Of a stretch of DNA of 32,676 nt, positions 15,241 through 29,012 are shown one piece after another. The stretch spans positions 1 to 32,676 of the forward strand of contig CASDOM010000025.1 of the NCBI GenBank assembly GCA_949282435.1, read 5' to 3'. Source of the DNA: an uncultured Ureaplasma sp. GTDB lineage: Bacteria; Bacillota_I; Bacilli_A; Mycoplasmatales; Mycoplasmoidaceae. The notes under the pieces were generated by a model that saw only the letters and a list, made by a program, of their open reading frames with translations, searched no databases and was not told the DNA's origin. A program made the position numbers and the translations under genes. Each line of letters starts with the position of its first letter. Position 1 is the stretch's first letter.

Positions 15241-15600
15241 ATGAGCTTTATTAATAAACTTGGTAAAACACGTGCTAAACGTAAAATGATAGTTCGTCAA
15301 CAAGTAACTGATGTTTTAGCATATGGACAAATTATTACAACTCACACAAAAGCTAAAGAAACTCAACGTCATGTTGATCGTATTATTACTTTAGCTAAAA
15401 AGAACACTTTAGCTTCAAGAAGAAGTGCTGCTGCAATTTTATTAAATAATCAAAAATATAATAAAGATGATTTATTAAAAAAATTATTTAATGAAATTGG
15501 ACCTAAATATATTAAACGTAATGGTGGTTATACAAGAGTTTTAAAATTAGGTCAACGTCGTGGTGATTCTACAGAAATGTCTGTTTTACAATTAGTTTAA
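15241..15600 (+). CDS. rplQ: 50S ribosomal protein L17
   Basis: L17 (119 aa) lies near the tunnel exit and is the last gene of the alpha operon. Family features are RAKRKMIVRQQVTDVLAYGQ, then IITTHTKAKETQRHVDRIITLAKK, and RNGGYTRVLKLGQRRGDSTEM near the C-terminus. GAAAGG precedes ATG 15241. A strong hairpin terminator follows 10 nt after the stop, so the ribosomal operon most likely ends here. Confidence 0.96.
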   Translation: MSFINKLGKTRAKRKMIVRQQVTDVLAYGQIITTHTKAKETQRHVDRIITLAKKNTLASRRSAAAILLNNQKYNKDDLLKKLFNEIGPKYIKRNGGYTRVLKLGQRRGDSTEMSVLQLV

Positions 15601-15610
15601 TTTATATTAG

Positions 15611-15637
15611 AGGTAGTTTGTTATAACTACCTTTTTT
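15611..15637 (+). terminator. Rho-independent terminator after rplQ
   Basis: AGGTAGTT (15611-15618) and AACTACCT (15625-15632) form a perfect 8-bp stem with a 6-nt loop, followed by a T run (15632-15637). It is one of the few stems in this region with several G-C pairs. It separates the ribosomal superoperon from the downstream metabolic cluster. Confidence 0.9.
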
Positions 15638-15661
15638 ATTTCTAATAAATTAAATATTTAT

Positions 15662-15667
15662 TATAAA
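15662..15667 (+). promoter_or_regulatory. Candidate -10 box of the cdd-pyk cluster
   Basis: TATAAA (15662-15667) lies 22 nt before the cdd start and after the rplQ terminator, so some promoter is required here if the cluster is transcribed separately. No convincing -35 box is seen. The leader would be about 14 nt with no Shine-Dalgarno. Confidence 0.35.
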
Positions 15668-15689
15668 ATAGTATTATTAATTACGTATT

Positions 15690-16076
15690 ATGTCAAAATT
15701 TGAAGAATTATTAAAATTAAGTAAAAATTCTATAGCAACATTCTCTAAATATAAAGTAGCATCTATAATTGAAACTGATAATGGTGTATATTCAGGGGTT
15801 AATATTGAACCTAGCGTTTTAAACTTAGGAATTTGTGCTGAAAGAAATGCATTATTTAACGCCTTAACAAACGGTTCTACATATATTAAAAAAATTTGGT
15901 TATTAACAAATTCTAAAATTAATTTTGGCACACCGTGTGGTGCTTGTAGACAATTGTTTATCGATTATATAAATGAAGATACAATCTTGTGCATTTATAA
16001 TTTAAAGGGTGAATTTATTGAATATAAATTTATAGATTTATTACCTTATTATTGATCTAAAAAGGAATTAAATTAA
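15690..16076 (+). CDS. cdd: Cytidine deaminase
   Basis: Cdd (128 aa) deaminates cytidine and deoxycytidine to uridine forms in pyrimidine salvage. The zinc and catalytic motifs are intact: CAERNALFNAL (Cys and the proton-shuttling Glu) and PCGACRQLF (two Cys). The substrate segment is seen as SGVNIEPSVLNLGICAE, a variant of the usual GxNIEN. TGA encodes a Trp six residues before the end. No RBS precedes ATG 15690. Its stop abuts the next ATG with no gap. Pyrimidine salvage genes beside phosphomutase genes are common in mollicutes. Confidence 0.93.
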
Positions 16077-17738
16077 ATGAACAAATTATATGAAGCATGA
16101 TTAAATAGTTCTAATGTCGATATGCATTGGAAAGAATCATTAAAAGCATTATCTAAAAATGATATTAATATTTTTTTTAGTGATAATAAAATCAAAATGG
16201 GTACTGCAGGTTACAGAGCTATTATTGGTCCGGGTAACTTTAATTTAAATGAATTTACTTATTATCAACTAACTGATGGATATGCAAAATGACTTAAACA
16301 TAAATATCCAAATAAAAAAATTAAAATTTTAATAGTACATGATAATAGAAAAAATGGTGATAAATATGCACACTTGTGTGCTAACGTGTTAATTAATAAT
16401 TATCATTTTGATGTTGTTTTAAATTTTGATAATCAATTATTACCAACTCCTATAGCTTCATATTTGGTTAAAAAATTTAATTATGATGGTTGTATAAATA
16501 TTACTGCATCACATAACCCAAAAGAATATAATGGTTTTAAATGTTATGACAATACTGGATGTCAATTATTACCTAATGATTGTGATTTTATTACAAACAA
16601 TATGATCGATTCATTTGATGTTTTAGATTGTGAAATAAATTTTAACCCAAATTCTTCTTTAAAATATATTACACAAAATCAAATTAATAATTATTTTAGT
16701 GATATATCAAAAGCTTTAAATAGTTTTAGTTATGATCAAAACAAAAGAATTAATTTAGTATATTCTTCAATGCATGGTACTGCTTCATTTTACATGTCTA
16801 AATTTTTATCAAGCTTAGGATTTAATTGCGTTGATGTTAAAGAACAAAATTATCCTGATCCAGAATTTACTAATACTCCTATTTGTAATCCAGAAAACCC
16901 TGAATCATTAAAATTAGCAATTTCTCTAGCTGATAAATTGAATATTAATATTGTCTTAGCTTCTGATCCTGATGCAGATAGATTAGCAATTGCAATTAAA
17001 AAAAATAATGAGTGAATATATTTAAATGGTAATCAAGCTGGTATTATTGAAACTTATTATAGATTGTTAAAGTTAAAAAATGATTCTAGATCAAAAGTAG
17101 TAATTTCTACATATATTTCTAATAATTTAATTGATAGAATTGTTGATGAATATAATGGTAGGGTAATTAGAACTGCAACTGGTTTTAAATGAATCGGAAA
17201 TGAAATCAATAAATTAGATCTAAATAAAGAAGTATATGTTAATGGTTTTGAAGAAGCAATAGGTGCTTTACCTGTTGATATTAATAGAGATAAAGATTCT
17301 TTTCAAACCGCACTTTTAATATTAAATATTATTAATTATTATTATGATAAAAATTGAGATTTAATAGATGTTTTAGAAAATGAGATTTATCCTAAATATG
17401 GATATTGATTTGGTAATACATATTCTTATATTATTGCGGGTAATGATTGAAAATTAAAAGCCCAAAATATGATGGAATTAATTTTAAATTATAAACAATC
17501 TTATGTTTTAAATAGAAAAGTTATTAACATTATGTACAATGATAATGCTAATTGCGTTGAAATGTTATTTGAAAATGATTCATGAGTTAAATTTAGAATT
17601 TCTGGGACTGAACCTAAATTTAAAATTTATGTAAATTTATACAATAATGATTCCAATAATAAATATAATATTAGTAAGAGTTTATTAGCAGAATCTAATG
17701 AACTTGTAAACTATTTTAAAAAATATTTATCATTATAA
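16077..17738 (+). CDS. Phosphomannomutase / phosphoglucomutase family enzyme
   Basis: This 553-aa protein belongs to the alpha-D-phosphohexomutase family, which moves phosphate between C1 and C6 of sugars or C1 and C5 of pentoses. Motifs are MGTAGYRAIIGPGNF (41-55), the catalytic phosphoserine in TASHNPKEYNG (Ser145), the metal loop SDPDADR (296-302) and the phosphate-binding SGTEPK (509-514). Length fits the manB/pgcA-like mutases of Mollicutes. Whether it acts on glucose, mannose or deoxyribose phosphate cannot be told from sequence; cdd next door suggests a possible nucleoside-salvage link. At least eight Trp codons are TGA and one is TGG. AAAGGA (within cdd) serves ATG 16077. Confidence 0.92.
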
Positions 17739-17741
17739 TTT

Positions 17742-18449
17742 ATGAATAAAAAAATCTTCATTAACCTTAAAACTAATAAAAATAGTGTTGAATTATTAAA
17801 TTATTTAACTGAAATTAATAATTTAAAAAATTTTAAATGTGTTTTATTTGTAAATTTTATGTATTTATTATTAGCTAAAAAATATTCTAATAATAATATT
17901 CAAATTGGTTCACAAAGTGGTTTTTGAATTGATAGTGGAAATTATACTTCTCAAGTAAGTTTAAAACAAATTAATGATGAAGGAATTAAGTGAGTTTTAT
18001 TAGGTCATTGTGAAGATGTTAAATATAATCATTTAACTCTTGAACAATTAAAATTGCAATTAGAAAAATCCATTGATTTAAATTATAATATTGTATTTTG
18101 TTTTGGTGAGTTAAATAAAATAGATAATTTTGGTGATCGTATAAATTATTTAATTAACTATTTAGAACAAATTAATATTTATAAATATTTAAATAATAAT
18201 TTTTATTTAGCATATGAACCAGTTTATTTAATTGGTGGAAAAGGTCAAATTAATATTAATGAAATAAGAGATATTGTTATTAATATTAAAAAATATTTTA
18301 TGAATAAATATAATTTAAATATTAATTTGATTTATGGTGGTAGTGTTAATAATACTAATATTGATAGTTTAAATAATATAAATGAATTAGATGGTTTTTT
18401 AATTGGTTCTTATGCTTGATCAATTGATAATTTAAAATTTATTAAATAA
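17742..18449 (+). CDS. tpiA: Triosephosphate isomerase, divergent
   Basis: TpiA interconverts dihydroxyacetone phosphate and glyceraldehyde 3-phosphate. Catalytic residues are present: N8 and K10 (INLKTN), H89 (LLGHCED) and E159 (AYEPV). YGGSV (198-202) is the phosphate-binding motif. Departures from consensus are GHSE changed to GHCE, the loop-6 WAIGTG changed to YLIGGK (162-167), and the final GGAS changed to GSYA. At 235 aa it is shorter than the usual ~250. TGA Trp codons occur at three places. There is no RBS; the start lies 3 nt after the mutase stop. Assignment is firm, but activity should be regarded as probable rather than certain. Confidence 0.9.
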
Positions 18450-18457
18450 AAAATTAT

Positions 18458-19957
18458 ATGAATAAAAAAGTTATTTTAGTTGTTTTAGATGGATTTGGTA
18501 TAGGTAAAAAAAACAAAAAAACTAATGCAATTTATGCTGCAAAAACACCTACATATGATATGTTGATAAAAAAATATAAATATGCAAAATTGTTTGCTTC
18601 TGGGAAACATGTTGGTGTTAATAAAAACCAATTTGGTAATTCAGAATTAGGTCATATGACAATAGGCAGTGGTCAAACAATTTGTAATATTAATCAATTT
18701 TTTTATGATTTGATAAAAAGCAATAAATTTAATGATTATTTAGCAAATTTAGAATGAATTAAAAAAATTATAAAAGATAAAAAAGTTCATTTATTTGGCA
18801 TGTATTCATCAGGAAAAATACATAGTGATAAATACGTTATTGATGCAATTATTAAATTTTTTGAATCTAAAAATGTTTGTGTTTATTTACATTTATTTAG
18901 TGACGGTCGTGATGTTGACAAATATACATTTTATAAAGATGTTAAAAAATTAACAAAAAAAATAAAATCTAGTACACATATTGCATCTATTGGTGGGCGT
19001 TATTATTATATGGATCGTGACAATAATTCTAATCTAACAAATAAAGCATATGATGCAATTATGCAAAAAATAATTTCAACTAAAAATGTTTTGGAATATA
19101 TTAAGGAATCATATAAAAAAAGTATTGATGATGAATTTATTATTCCTATTGGATTTAATGTCGAATGAAAAATTGCTCATAATGATAATTTATTATTTAT
19201 GAATTATCGCACAGATCGTATCACACAATTAATCAACAAATTTTTAAATACTAATAAATATAATATTGATAAAAAAATTCAATTTAATATTAATTTATAT
19301 TCAATTTGTGAATACACTAACACCCCCTCATTTGGTGTTATATATAACAAGCCAAATATAGATATTACATTAAATGAAATTTTAATTAATAACAATATTT
19401 CTCAATTAAGAATAAGTGAAAGTCAAAAGTTTGCTCATGTAACTTATTTTTTCGATTGTGGAAAGAATATTAAATCTTCAAATAAATCTGAAATTCTAAT
19501 TCCATCTATTAAGAATTCAACATATGATATATATCCATGTATGTCTGCAAATAAGATTACTAATAAATTGATTGAATTAGTTAATAATTATGATTTTATT
19601 TTAGTAAATTATCCTAATGCAGATATGGTAGGTCATACTGGTAATTTTAATGCAACAATAAAAGCTATTGAATGTATTGATTTACAGTTAAAGATTATTT
19701 ATAATATGTGTGTTAAAAACAATTGAAATTTAATTATTACTGCTGATCATGGCAACGCAGATTTTATGAAAAAAAATAATAAAAAAATCAAAACACACTC
19801 ATTATCTAAAGTACCCTTTATTCTTGTTTCATCAGAATATAAGTTAAATAAATTTAATGGTAGTTTACAAGATGTTGCACCAAGTATATTATTCATATAT
19901 AATATAAATTATTGTAAGATGGAAGGTAATTCATTAATTTGTAATAAACATGGCTAG
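18458..19957 (+). CDS. gpmI: 2,3-bisphosphoglycerate-independent phosphoglycerate mutase
   Basis: GpmI (499 aa) converts 3-phosphoglycerate to 2-phosphoglycerate using two Mn ions and a phosphoserine. Visible are the N-terminal VVLDGFGIG metal site, the catalytic Ser62 in GNSELGHMTIGSG, the substrate motifs LFSDGRDVD, GGRYYYMDRD and NYRTDR, then AHVTYFFDCGK, NYPNADMVGHTGN and the second metal motif ADHGNAD. Four Trp are TGA. Length is close to the usual ~510. No RBS precedes ATG 18458. Its last 8 nt overlap the start of the next gene, suggesting translational coupling. Confidence 0.95.
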
Positions 19958-21140
19958 CAATTTAAGTAATTATAGAAAAATAATTAAAAATAGTAATGTA
20001 AAAATTAAAAAAGAGTGAAAGATTAATAAAAATGTATATAAATTACTTTTACTTTCATTTCTTTTTGTTATTTATTTTTGAATGTTTATTAATTTATTAA
20101 TAATTCCTCAAGCACAATTTTCTACATCCTTTGTCAATATTACTGCATTTTATAAAGTAAAATTTTCTAGTGATTTTTCATCATATTCACTTTCATTAAC
20201 TACAAATGGTATTCTTTTGTTATTGAGTTGGATTTTGTTATTATTTTTTACAATTTTGTATGTTATAAAAAATAAAATAATTTTAAACAAAGAATATAAA
20301 TTTAGATCATTGCAAATTATTGCTTGAACTATATTTTTTTCAATGTTTTTTGTTTTATTTGTTCTTATTTTAATTTTCCCTAATTTATCTCATATTAGTA
20401 ACGTTTATTCTACTAATTATGCAATTGACACTGCCATTCAACAATCTATTAGTTTAAATAATGATAACCAAACTCTTATATCTGTATTTACTAAATATAA
20501 TTGATCATATGATCCGAATTGATCTTATAGTGAATTAGTAAATGGGTTATTATCACATAAAACAATATTAAATGGTTCTTATGTTTTATTTTCTGATGTA
20601 AATTCAACTTATGTAACTTTTAATTCATCTATAATTGCTATTTATGTATTTTTTTCAATTCCTGTATTGTTATTATTTGTTAATTACATTGTTAAATATT
20701 TTTATAACAATAAAATTAGTTTCCCAAATAAAGTTTCAATGGACAATGTAAAAAATTATTTAAATATTTACAAACAACACCGTATTGAAAAGAAACAAAT
20801 TAAACAAAATATGAAAAAATTAATAGATGAAGAAAATAAATTATTACAAAATTTATATGAAGTAGAAGATCCAAATATTAGTGAAAATGATCAAAATTTA
20901 GTTTCTAAAGAAAGTTTAGAAGAAAAAATTAATAAAAATAATGAATTAAAAAAAGAATTAGAAAATTTAGTAGTAAAAAAACAAGAATTAAAACAACAAT
21001 CATTAAATAAATCAAGAATTAAAAAGTTTATTAATAAATTACAAGATGGTAATGTTAATTTAAATAAAAATAAAAAGCAAGAAATTGCAGTTCCTGATAA
21101 AGAGCTTGAAGAAATCTTTAGAAGTTTAGATATTGATTAG
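19950..21140 (+). CDS. Unrecognised four-TM membrane protein with cytoplasmic coiled-coil domain
   Basis: I do not recognise this 396-aa protein. It begins with a basic segment (1-30), then hydrophobic helices at about 31-53, 83-107, 121-145 and 226-251. Polar loops lie at 54-82 and 146-225, the latter rich in Ser, Asn, Thr and Tyr. With the basic N-terminus inside, the loops would be outside the cell and the C-terminus inside. Residues about 275-365 are highly charged and Glu/Lys/Leu-rich, with coiled-coil character. The last residues are acidic. No enzyme motif is visible. The ATG overlaps gpmI by 8 nt and eno follows after 9 nt, so it is embedded in a glycolytic operon. Four of its Trp codons are TGA and one is TGG. 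A regulator, scaffold or transport accessory are only guesses. Confidence 0.85.
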
Positions 21141-21149
21141 TATTAAAAT

Positions 21150-22439
21150 ATGAAAATAACTGATTTAAAGGCTTATTTAGTATACGATTCAAGAGGTATA
21201 CCTACTGTTGCATGCAATGTATGTATAGATAATAATGTAAATGATATTGCGATGGTGCCAAGTGGTAATTCAACTGGTAGCAATGAAATGTTTGAATTAA
21301 GAGATAGATCTAAGGATTGATTTGGTTATGGTGTAAATAATGCAATTGATAACATTAATAATATTATTAAACCTAAATTAATTGGTTTAAATCCTTTAAA
21401 GCAATCTGAAATAGATAACATTATGATTAAATTGGATAATTCTTTTAATAAATCAAATTTAGGTTCAAATGCAATTTTAGCTGTTTCCATTGCTATTGCT
21501 AAAACTGTTGCTAAAGCATTAAATATCCCAATTTATAAATATATTAATAAATATTTATTTAATAACAAATTTAATTACAAGTACCCTTTTTGTTGTGTTA
21601 ATGTAATTAATGGTGGCAAACATGCTAATAACAATTTAGATTTTCAAGAGTTCATGTTTATACCATTAAAAGGTAAAAATATTGATGATCATTTGAAAAT
21701 TGCTGATGAATGTTTTTTGTCATTGCAAAACATCTTATATAAAAAGAATATTTCTATTGCTAAGGGTGATGAAGGTGGTTTTAGTATAAATGCAAATAAT
21801 TTATATGAAATCTTTGATTTATTAATAGAATCTATAAATAATGCAAATTATGTATGCGGTAAAGATGTTGGAATTGGTATTGATATTGCAGCATCACAAT
21901 TTTATAAAAATGGTAAATATAATTTAAAATGTTTTGATAAGTCTCTATCAGGAATGGAATTAATTGAATTTTATAATAAATTAATTTTGAAATATCCTAT
22001 TGTTTATATTGAAGATCCATTTTATGAGTCAGATTGAAATTCATTTATTACTTTTACTAAATTACATAATGATATATTAATAGTTGGAGACGATTTATAT
22101 TGTACTAATTCTAAATTATTAAATAAAGGTTATCAAATGAATGCTACTAATTCAATTATTATAAAATTAAACCAAATTGGAACATTAAGTGAATGTTTAG
22201 ATACAATTAATAATGCAATAAAATATAATATGAATTATATTATTAGTCATAGATCAGGAGATACTGAGGATAGTTTTATTGCTGATTTGGCAGTTGGTAC
22301 TAATGCGAAGTTAATTAAAACTGGTAGTATGGCTAGAAGTGAAAGATTAGCAAAATATAATAGATTGATTACTATTAATAATCTTTATGATAATTTATCA
22401 TCATATGATTGAAGAAAGATTTTAAAATCATGAGAATAG
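21150..22439 (+). CDS. eno: Enolase
   Basis: Enolase (429 aa) converts 2-phosphoglycerate to phosphoenolpyruvate. The active site appears complete: SRGIPTV (14-20), the mobile loop SGNSTG (38-43), catalytic Glu208 in KGDEGGF, metal ligands in GIDIAAS, YIEDPF and VGDDLYCTN, base Lys339 in [10 protein letters not shown], then [10 protein letters not shown] and Lys390 in [11 protein letters not shown]. The usual VPSGASTG is VPSGNSTG. Three TGA Trp codons include the penultimate residue. No RBS precedes ATG 21150. The 3' end overlaps pfkA by 10 nt. Confidence 0.95.
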
Positions 22440-23380
22440 GAATTTTAACTTCAGGTGGTGATTCTCCAGGGATGAATGCATCACTTTATTATTTAAAAAA
22501 ATATTTATATAAACATGAAATAATATTTTTCAAAAATGGCTTTTATGGTTTGTGTAATAATTTAATTATAAATAATGAATTAATTAATTCTAATATTATA
22601 TCTTCTAGTGGATCTATTATTGGAAGTAGTAGATATGTTGATTTTAAATCTAATATTGACCATGCGCTTAATGTTATTAAACAAAATAATATTGACATAA
22701 TTGTTGTTATTGGTGGCAATGGAAGTTTTTTAGGTGCAAAATTATTATTAGATAAAAATATTAAGGTTTATTTTATACCTGCAACTATTGATAATGATAT
22801 TCAATTTAGTCAATATTCAATTGGATATTTATCAGCTTTAAATGAAATAAACCATAACTTGTTAAAATTACACCAAACTTTTTCAACGCATTCTAATATA
22901 TGTTTTGTTGAAACAATGGGTCGTCACTGCTCACATTTATCATATGCCTCTTCATTAGGTTATGAAAATATGTTTGTAACAAATTTAGATCAAAAACTTT
23001 CAATTGATGATTTAGTTAATAAAACAATGAATTATTACCAAAAATATAATTATGGTTTAGGAATTATTAGTGAATATACATATAATGAAAATGAATTATC
23101 ATCTTTAATAAATAAAATAAAATCTAAATGTAATTGTGATGTTAAATATATAAAAATTGGTTATGTCCAACGTGGTGCAAATGTATGCTATAGTGACATT
23201 AAATTTTCTAATATGTTTGCATTTACTATACTTAAATTATTAAGTAGTAACATATTTAATGTATCACTATATATAAAAGATAATATTGTTAAATATAGTA
23301 AATTTAATGAATTAAAATCCATAAATGTATTAACAGATCTTGAAAAAGAAATTTTTAAATATGATGTTGACAAAAACTAA
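22430..23380 (+). CDS. pfkA: 6-phosphofructokinase family protein with altered active-site residues
   Basis: PfkA phosphorylates fructose 6-phosphate with ATP, the committed step of glycolysis. I start it at ATG 22430, giving [17 protein letters not shown]. The protein is 316 aa, near the usual 320. Conserved parts are GFYGL, SSRYVDF, the catalytic TIDND (119-123), ETMGRH (161-166) and GYVQRG (244-249). Compared by eye with E. coli PfkA, three ligands differ: Asp103 of GGDGS is Asn97 in GGNGS, Arg162 of SHQRI is Asn156 in THSNI, and Arg252 is Ile257. These normally bind Mg or fructose 6-phosphate. The gene overlaps eno by 10 nt and pyk by 20 nt. It may be impaired or of changed specificity. 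Confidence 0.88.
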   Translation: MRIGILTSGGDSPGMNASLYYLKKYLYKHEIIFFKNGFYGLCNNLIINNELINSNIISSSGSIIGSSRYVDFKSNIDHALNVIKQNNIDIIVVIGGNGSFLGAKLLLDKNIKVYFIPATIDNDIQFSQYSIGYLSALNEINHNLLKLHQTFSTHSNICFVETMGRHCSHLSYASSLGYENMFVTNLDQKLSIDDLVNKTMNYYQKYNYGLGIISEYTYNENELSSLINKIKSKCNCDVKYIKIGYVQRGANVCYSDIKFSNMFAFTILKLLSSNIFNVSLYIKDNIVKYSKFNELKSINVLTDLEKEIFKYDVDKN

Positions 23381-24623
23381 AAAAATAATCACTTATGGTC
23401 CTAGTATTAAAAAATTTTTAAATATTAGTTATAATAATATGCAAATAAATAATGATGTTATTAATGCATATAAAAAATTAATTAATACTGGTGTTGATTG
23501 TATTAGATTTAATTTATCTCATGATAATGTTGATAATTATTATGAAATAGTTCAGTTATTCAATCAATTAAATAAATATTTAGATTATAAAATATCACTA
23601 CTTTTTGATACTAAAGGACCCGAAATTAGAGTTGATAATATTCAATCTCAAAACATTAATGATAATAAAATTAGTTTAAACCAAAAAGTAATAATTAAAT
23701 GTTGTCAAAAAGATTTTGTAGGTAATAAATATGCTTTTAGTGTATCAAATATTACTAATGATTATTATTTAATTAATGATTTAGAATTAAATGATTTAAT
23801 TTATATAGACGATGGACATTTAATTCTAAAAGTTATTAATTTAGACAAAATTAAAAATGAAATTATTACTAATTGTGAAGTTTTATCATATACAATTCAA
23901 TCCAACAAAAGGGTTAATTTAGTAAATAAAAAATATCAATTACCATTTTTAAGCAAATATGATCAATATTGTATTAAAAAATGTGTTGAATGAAAAATTG
24001 ATTTTTTAGCATTATCTTTTGTTTCAAATCTTGATCATATTGTTCAGGTGAAAAATATTATTTCAAAAATTGATTCAAATAGTAATTTAAAAATTATTTC
24101 TAAAATTGAAAATTATGAATCAATAAATAATTTAAAAGAAATTATTTTGCATAGTGATGGGATAATGTGTGCAAGAGGAGATTTGTCATTACATTTAGGA
24201 TATGAGAAGGTTCCTTATTATGAAGATCTTATTGCAAGTGAATGTTCTAAATATAAAAAAATCTGTATTTTAGCAACCCAAGTTTTAGGATCTTTAGAGC
24301 ACAATTTATTACCAACACGGGCTGAAGTATATGATTGTTATAATGGAGTTAAATTAGGTTATGATGCAATAATGTTATCTAATGAAACTGCTATAGGATT
24401 AAATCCACTAAATGCAATTTTTGTAATGAATAAAATTATTTTAGAAGCAGAAAAAATTTATTTTAAAAAATTAAAACATTTAAATAAAAATTACAATAAT
24501 ATTATTTATTTAAATAATATTAAAAAAATTATAAAAAAACAAAATAAAAATAAAATAATGATTTATTCACATAATGACAACAATTGATTAACGTTATTAA
24601 AAAATGTTTATATAAAAAATTAA
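23361..24623 (+). CDS. pyk: Pyruvate kinase with shortened C-terminal domain
   Basis: Pyk makes pyruvate and ATP from phosphoenolpyruvate and ADP. Catalytic motifs are largely kept: IRFNLSHD, LFDTKGPEIR, IDFLALSFVS, ISKIENYES, IMCARGDLSLHLG and PTRAEVYD, then LSNETA. Departures include ITYGPS for the usual TIGPAS, ATQVLGSL for ATQMLESM, and SNETA for SGETA. Only about 57 residues follow EAE after the ETA motif, against roughly 110-120 in typical enzymes. The total is 420 aa. The allosteric C-terminal domain is thus about half size. ATG 23361 (or 23364) lies inside pfkA, 20 nt before its stop, with no RBS. Two TGA codons encode Trp. Confidence 0.9.
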
Positions 24624-24630
24624 TTGGTTC

Positions 24631-24658
24631 CAAAAGAATTAAAATTAATTAATTTTTG
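24631..24658 (+). terminator. Weak candidate terminator after pyk
   Basis: CAAAAGAATTAA (24631-24642) can pair with TTAATTTTTG (24649-24658) if GA is bulged, with a 6-nt loop. The stem is almost all A-T and the T run lies inside the 3' arm, so this is a poor Rho-independent terminator. It is the only candidate between pyk and rpoB. Confidence 0.25.
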
Positions 24659-24659
24659 T

Positions 24660-24675
24660 TATATAATTAATTAGT
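24660..24675 (+). promoter_or_regulatory. Candidate -10 region for rpoBC
   Basis: TATATAATTAATTAGT contains TATAAT (24662-24667) and is identical over 16 bases to the string before map (12396-12411). It would give an rpoB leader of about 75 nt containing TTAAC (24688-24692) complementary to GTTAA (24704-24708). No clear -35 hexamer is visible at 17 nt. GGGG (24737-24740) shortly before ATG 24750 is a possible RBS core. Confidence 0.45.
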
Positions 24676-24749
24676 ATTTTATATATTTAACCTAAACAAC
24701 TACGTTAAGTTATAAATAATTATTTCAATTTATATTTGGGGTTTAAGAT

Positions 24750-29012
<4,263 letters not shown>

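Follow-up and report, generated by a model that had tools for sequence, protein, structure and literature searches.

A conserved C-terminal peptide on a four-TM membrane protein usually encoded beside gpmI in Ureaplasma and two related genera

Introduction

Why should a gene for a membrane protein without a name lie among the genes of lower glycolysis in the genome of a gut Ureaplasma, and which part of its product do the cells that keep it conserve? The gene, called X here, was found in a window of 32,676 nucleotides, the whole stretch of DNA that was analysed, from an assembly (G000) of 507,651 bases in 41 contigs that is 85% complete. A preliminary description of the sequence suggested that X might tether or regulate glycolysis at the membrane, or simply be a lineage-specific surface protein. 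Our data show that X is a real membrane-protein family without a name, centred on Ureaplasma (the genus of G000, g1) and two related genera (g8 and g9), and that its conserved feature is a C-terminal stretch of about 23 residues, which that description missed; the charged coiled coil that it described is not the conserved part.

Results

The reading frame of X contains five stops in translation table 11 and is open in the Mycoplasma code (code 4), in which the five TGA codons are read as Trp. As homologues match it over the whole length at 42-46% identity, and synonymous codon differences have accumulated in the C-terminal peptide, X is a real gene. Several earlier statements held: the code 4 frame and hydropathy agree with 396 residues and four hydrophobic helices, and both the 8-nt overlap with gpmI and the position 9 nt ahead of eno were confirmed, within a probable operon that includes glycolytic genes (Table 1). 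This operon, cdd to pyk, sits between rplQ and rpoB (gene names in the window were assigned by reading translations). A terminator-like site at 15609-15634 lies just past rplQ and ahead of the operon, and no further one was found on the + strand between it and rpoB. Because of this and the tight spacing of the genes, X is very probably co-transcribed with its glycolytic neighbours. Rfam models gave no match over 15500-24800.

Table 1. Features of the X locus (window coordinates) and of gene Y (coordinates in the loci named)
Feature	Position	Strand	Basis or remark
Probable operon cdd-pmm-tpiA-gpmI-X-eno-pfkA-pyk	15690..24623	+	tight spacing; no internal + strand terminator-like site
gpmI, usual upstream neighbour of X	18458..19957	+	8-nt overlap with X
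X, four-TM membrane protein, 396 aa, code 4	19950..21140	+	ORF, neighbour spacing, hydropathy
TM1, residues 34-52	20049..20105	+	hydropathy; AlphaFold helix 27-54
Predicted beta hairpin ahead of TM2, residues 68-83			both AlphaFold models
TM2, residues 88-106	20211..20267	+	hydropathy, AlphaFold
TM3, residues 124-142	20319..20375	+	hydropathy, AlphaFold
Large outer loop, helical, residues 143-225	20376..20624	+	both AlphaFold models
Second predicted hairpin, inside large outer loop, residues 211-224			both AlphaFold models
TM4, residues 226-244	20625..20681	+	hydropathy, AlphaFold
Coiled coil, two long charged cytoplasmic helices, residues 264-304 and 320-369	20739..21056	+	hydropathy, AlphaFold
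Conserved C-terminal motif, residues 373-395	21066..21134	+	alignment, profiles, codon comparison
eno, downstream neighbour of X in g1 and g8	21150..22439	+	9-nt gap after X
Gene Y, four-TM-like, 199-207 aa, without tail, between X and ileS	L069 5998-6615, L070 2855-3478, L108 7264-7863		three g9 genomes

No family could be named for X, as the preliminary description had said: none of the Pfam and NCBIfam models passes its cut-off with the window protein, and searches found no match among solved structures (A1 gave a single 9-residue match there, by chance). Scans of 14 relatives returned scattered weak hits, of which LMBR1, with 2.1e-5 in a single relative, was the best in Pfam. Searched at E up to 10, the window protein had no Pfam match to a KH or HD nuclease domain, and these were absent from the best 25 of 36 Pfam families in the 14 members; the NCBIfam RNase_Y model reached E 0.072 in one member, which is noise level. 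A division protein of the FtsL type was rejected at 12.1 bits against a cut-off of 42.45, and FtsL is single-pass. A literature search found no paper on gene X.

Orthologues of X were found in 18 genomes, namely 10/10 of the g1 genomes examined, 2/2 of g8 and 6/6 of g9. A search of 59 relatives recovered homologues, some complete and some partial, from g1 genomes and from the two g8 genomes, and reading the gpmI-eno gap in G001, G003 and G009, where nothing had matched before, revealed a four-TM protein of 281-295 aa. The C-terminal profile found the copies in G004, where the gene is located elsewhere, and in G108 of g9, and weakly those in G107 and G109 (g9); the full profile found that in G017. 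For the protein encoded 3' of gpmI in G034 and G026 (g9), profile comparison with the X family gave 7e-10, the best of eight block-shuffled controls being 3.5e-5. At their N-terminus these two orthologues (L109 6387-7520 and L110 1333-2550) have a repeat with many K-K-S-x-D-K-I units. Across the order, 32 genomes matched at E 0.1 or better, 16 of them X and the other 16 weak, and the C-terminal motif was absent from all five weak-match regions that were read. Gene Y, a small membrane gene of G107, G109 and G017 with no Pfam match in the scan of L069 and L070, and weak hits in G111, G094 and G066 were also considered; their homology to X is not established, since their profile E-values against the family as a whole, 1.1e-5 to 4e-4, do not clearly surpass those of the shuffled controls.

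The preliminary description asked whether X keeps its place between gpmI and eno in related genomes, and took relatives in which the gene is unlinked to glycolysis as evidence against its reading. The first half of this placement stood widely, as X lies immediately 3' of gpmI in 15 of the 18 genomes and in all three genera (G000, G001, G002, G003, G006, G007, G008, G009, G016, G025, G017, G107, G109, G034 and G026). The order gpmI-X-eno is complete on a single contig in seven (G000, G001, G003, G008, G009, G016, G025), and contig ends fit it in three more: in G007 a 3' piece of X adjoins eno at the end of another contig, and in G002 and G006 the contig stops at the expected place of eno. The second half did not hold in g9, where the gene after gpmI-X is not eno. 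There X is followed by Y and then ileS in G107, G109 and G017, and by a gene weakly matching map (an M24-peptidase-like protein) in G034 and G026. In the remaining three genomes X is away from gpmI; it follows rpoC and a 158-aa gene in G004, is flanked in G005 by one trmB-like and one S4-type gene, and lies between truA and ileS in G108 (neighbours in these three named by reading translations). Neither eno, gpmI nor pyk was found in G005, whose assembly is probably incomplete because pgk is present and rpoB stands at a contig end. Thus the link of X to glycolysis is common and not obligatory.

The pair tpiA-gpmI occurs without X in several other genera, and X may therefore have joined a pre-existing cluster. 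In a tree of 32 GpmI sequences g1 and g9 are joined (support 100/100) and g8 is placed elsewhere (89/94), which means that X is old with losses, or that X moved, or that gpmI moved.

Hydropathy gives four hydrophobic segments in all 18 X sequences (that of G007 is truncated at a contig end). Inner loops are basic and outer loops poor in K/R, the second outer loop holding 2 K/R in 83 residues, so that by the positive-inside rule both ends lie inside. Two AlphaFold runs of four sequences each gave the same arrangement: a TM helix, a hairpin, two more TM helices, a helical outer domain, a second hairpin, the last TM helix, the two long helices, a loose linker and a short terminal helix. Because mean pLDDT is 60 and pTM 0.35-0.38, the models were used for topology alone; pLDDT is about 82-90 across residues 151-200 and about 40-75 for the two long helices, which match the charged cytoplasmic coiled coil described earlier. 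Both models suggested an internal duplication (TM1-hairpin-TM2 against TM3-hairpin-TM4), which we rejected because the two halves, aligned with hhalign, reached just 37% probability across 26 columns. In four orthologues (G001, G003, G004, G009) the tail past TM4 has 40-53 residues, and in the rest of the family 126-194 (with G007 truncated), so members of the family can do without the coiled coil.

The conserved stretch forms the C-terminus itself. Mean pairwise identity of residues 373-395 is 0.55 over 91 pairs from 14 sequences, whereas nine other regions range from 0.18 to 0.26, with TM segments at 0.23-0.26 and outer loops at 0.18-0.19. The motif reads K-K-x-x-I-x-x-P-D-x-x-L-E-x-I-F-x-x-L-D-I/L, and in 15/15 sequences its core, with PD-x-x-L-E/D, stops 1-2 residues before the protein end; in G007 it was recognised by profile. 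A 9-row model of the peptide, searched against 95 genomes of the taxonomic family, marked a single strong place in 12/12 g1 and g8 genomes (E 7.6e-13 or better) and found G004, G007, G025 and, at 1.2e-7, G108, none of which was in the model; second matches in a few genomes (E 0.0145 to 0.74) were read as chance. A 15-row model, searched against 298 genomes of the order, picked out 16 at E 1.1e-9 or better, each with a single strong place, always the X gene, and 0.028 as the next best value; 15 of these 16 genomes were in the model, and G007 was not.

Among codons for the same residue of the peptide, 456/1202 pairs differ synonymously. This turnover, together with the persistence of the motif away from eno, argues for selection on the peptide and not on a DNA or RNA element. 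The motif is retained where X lies far from gpmI and eno (G004, G005, G108) and where the coiled coil is absent (G001, G003, G004, G009), which indicates that the peptide is selected on its own. A terminal helix was predicted with low confidence, at 383-392 in the first AlphaFold run and at 386-395 in the second. This peptide is what is new in our finding, and it can be tested.

Discussion

The membrane part and spacer of X drift while its terminal helix stays frozen, and this suggests an adaptor, anchored in the membrane, that docks a single conserved partner in the cytosol through its C-terminal helix; this is the reading that we favour, and we give it an even chance of being correct. The four TM helices, which leave both termini in the cytoplasm, would hold X in the cell membrane, and the cytoplasmic tail would act as a spacer of about 40 to about 190 residues, free to vary in length and sequence. 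The short helix-forming peptide at its end would then serve as the docking site, bringing the partner, presumably a soluble protein or complex, to the membrane; such a partner has to be conserved in g1, g8 and g9 alike. Against this reading, no partner was found, no GpmI or Eno signature of weight sets the genomes with X apart, pLDDT of the terminal helix is below 50, and the motif has decayed in G034 and G026, to ...EIDGFLDEIIGKDK / EIDGYLDQIIGKDK. Eukaryotic LD motifs of the paxillin type are helices with the pattern L-E/D-x-hydrophobic-hydrophobic-x-x-L. The L-E-x-I-F-x-x-L of X resembles this pattern, and the similarity to LD-type docking helices is one of resemblance only.

The restricted range of X, three genera, would also fit a lineage-specific envelope or surface protein that happens to lie in a strong operon, with its job outside the cell and its C-terminus serving assembly. 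The outer loops rank with the least conserved regions, as would suit surface-exposed parts, yet they are hardly more divergent than the TM segments, and it is the cytosolic end and not the outside that is under the strongest constraint. The surface protein of the preliminary description therefore accounts for the range and leaves the conserved cytosolic C-terminus unexplained, and we consider it rather unlikely.

The other earlier proposal, a tether or regulator of glycolysis, gains from the operon position and would take the form of a peptide that recruits lower glycolysis to the membrane by binding GpmI (or Eno, PfkA or Pyk), in the manner of red-cell band 3. The overlap of genes points to coupled expression, and the frequent order gpmI-X(-eno) favours the tether. 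However, X is unlinked in three genomes and lacks eno as next gene in g9, and X may simply have landed beside a tpiA-gpmI pair that exists without it elsewhere. Residue columns marking the genomes with X numbered one in GpmI (32 sequences) and two in Eno (19 sequences), none of weight. Because of the three unlinked genomes and the lack of a weighty signature we hold the tether to be unlikely.

Among known systems, band 3 and the degradosome scaffolds come closest. In red cells the cytoplasmic domain of band 3 (AE1) binds soluble proteins, glycolytic enzymes included, according to PMC8714990. Band 3 and X are both membrane proteins with a cytosolic part; in X the putative binding motif is C-terminal, and the likeness is one of proposed role. 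PMC3071783 describes RNase E of E. coli as holding enolase, and RNases J1/J2 and Y of B. subtilis as interacting with PNPase, phosphofructokinase and enolase. Unlike the degradosome scaffolds RNase E and RNase Y, X has no nuclease domain beyond noise in the Pfam and NCBIfam scans.

The conserved terminus could instead serve targeting or turnover, as a signal for quality control, targeting or degradation that some general factor (protease, chaperone or translocase) would read. Its place at the extreme C-terminus, independent of tail length, would suit this, but such a signal would be expected on more than one protein and the peptide was found once per genome, which makes this explanation very unlikely. 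That X is a channel or transporter subunit is highly improbable, since beyond its four TM helices this has only weak VIA-align matches of low-confidence models to connexins, claudin-4 and cytochrome oxidase subunits (connexin, claudin and COX III at Z 5.9-7.8), the best rows overall (Z 7.8 and 9.3) fall inside the noise range that the tool gives for helical models, Foldseek gave no match at E 0.001 or better, and the TM segments are just 0.23-0.26 identical.

For the membrane-anchored adaptor, gene order alone makes glycolytic enzymes the leading candidates as partner. They fit both conservation across genera and gene order, as many other proteins do. We think it unlikely that the peptide works as a dedicated tag by which GpmI, or some other enzyme of lower glycolysis, is fixed to the membrane; if true, X would be a bacterial membrane anchor of a glycolytic assembly in a near-minimal organism, and the spatial organisation of glycolysis in wall-less bacteria would become directly testable. 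X has survived genome reduction amid a core operon, and its 23-residue tail is frozen where the remainder drifts, an extreme contrast that points to an interaction apparently indispensable to these cells. As the peptide is short, soluble and present on one protein only, its partner can be searched for with a single pull-down.

Two further observations concern the genomes and the window. The classical GAPDH C-domain (PF02800) was searched for in six genomes, the window's own included, and found in none; four of the six carry pgk, and the GAPDH step in these genomes is likely served by another route. At the start of the window, positions 1-676 hold the 3' end of the 23S rRNA and the 5S rRNA, immediately 5' of the ribosomal protein operon.
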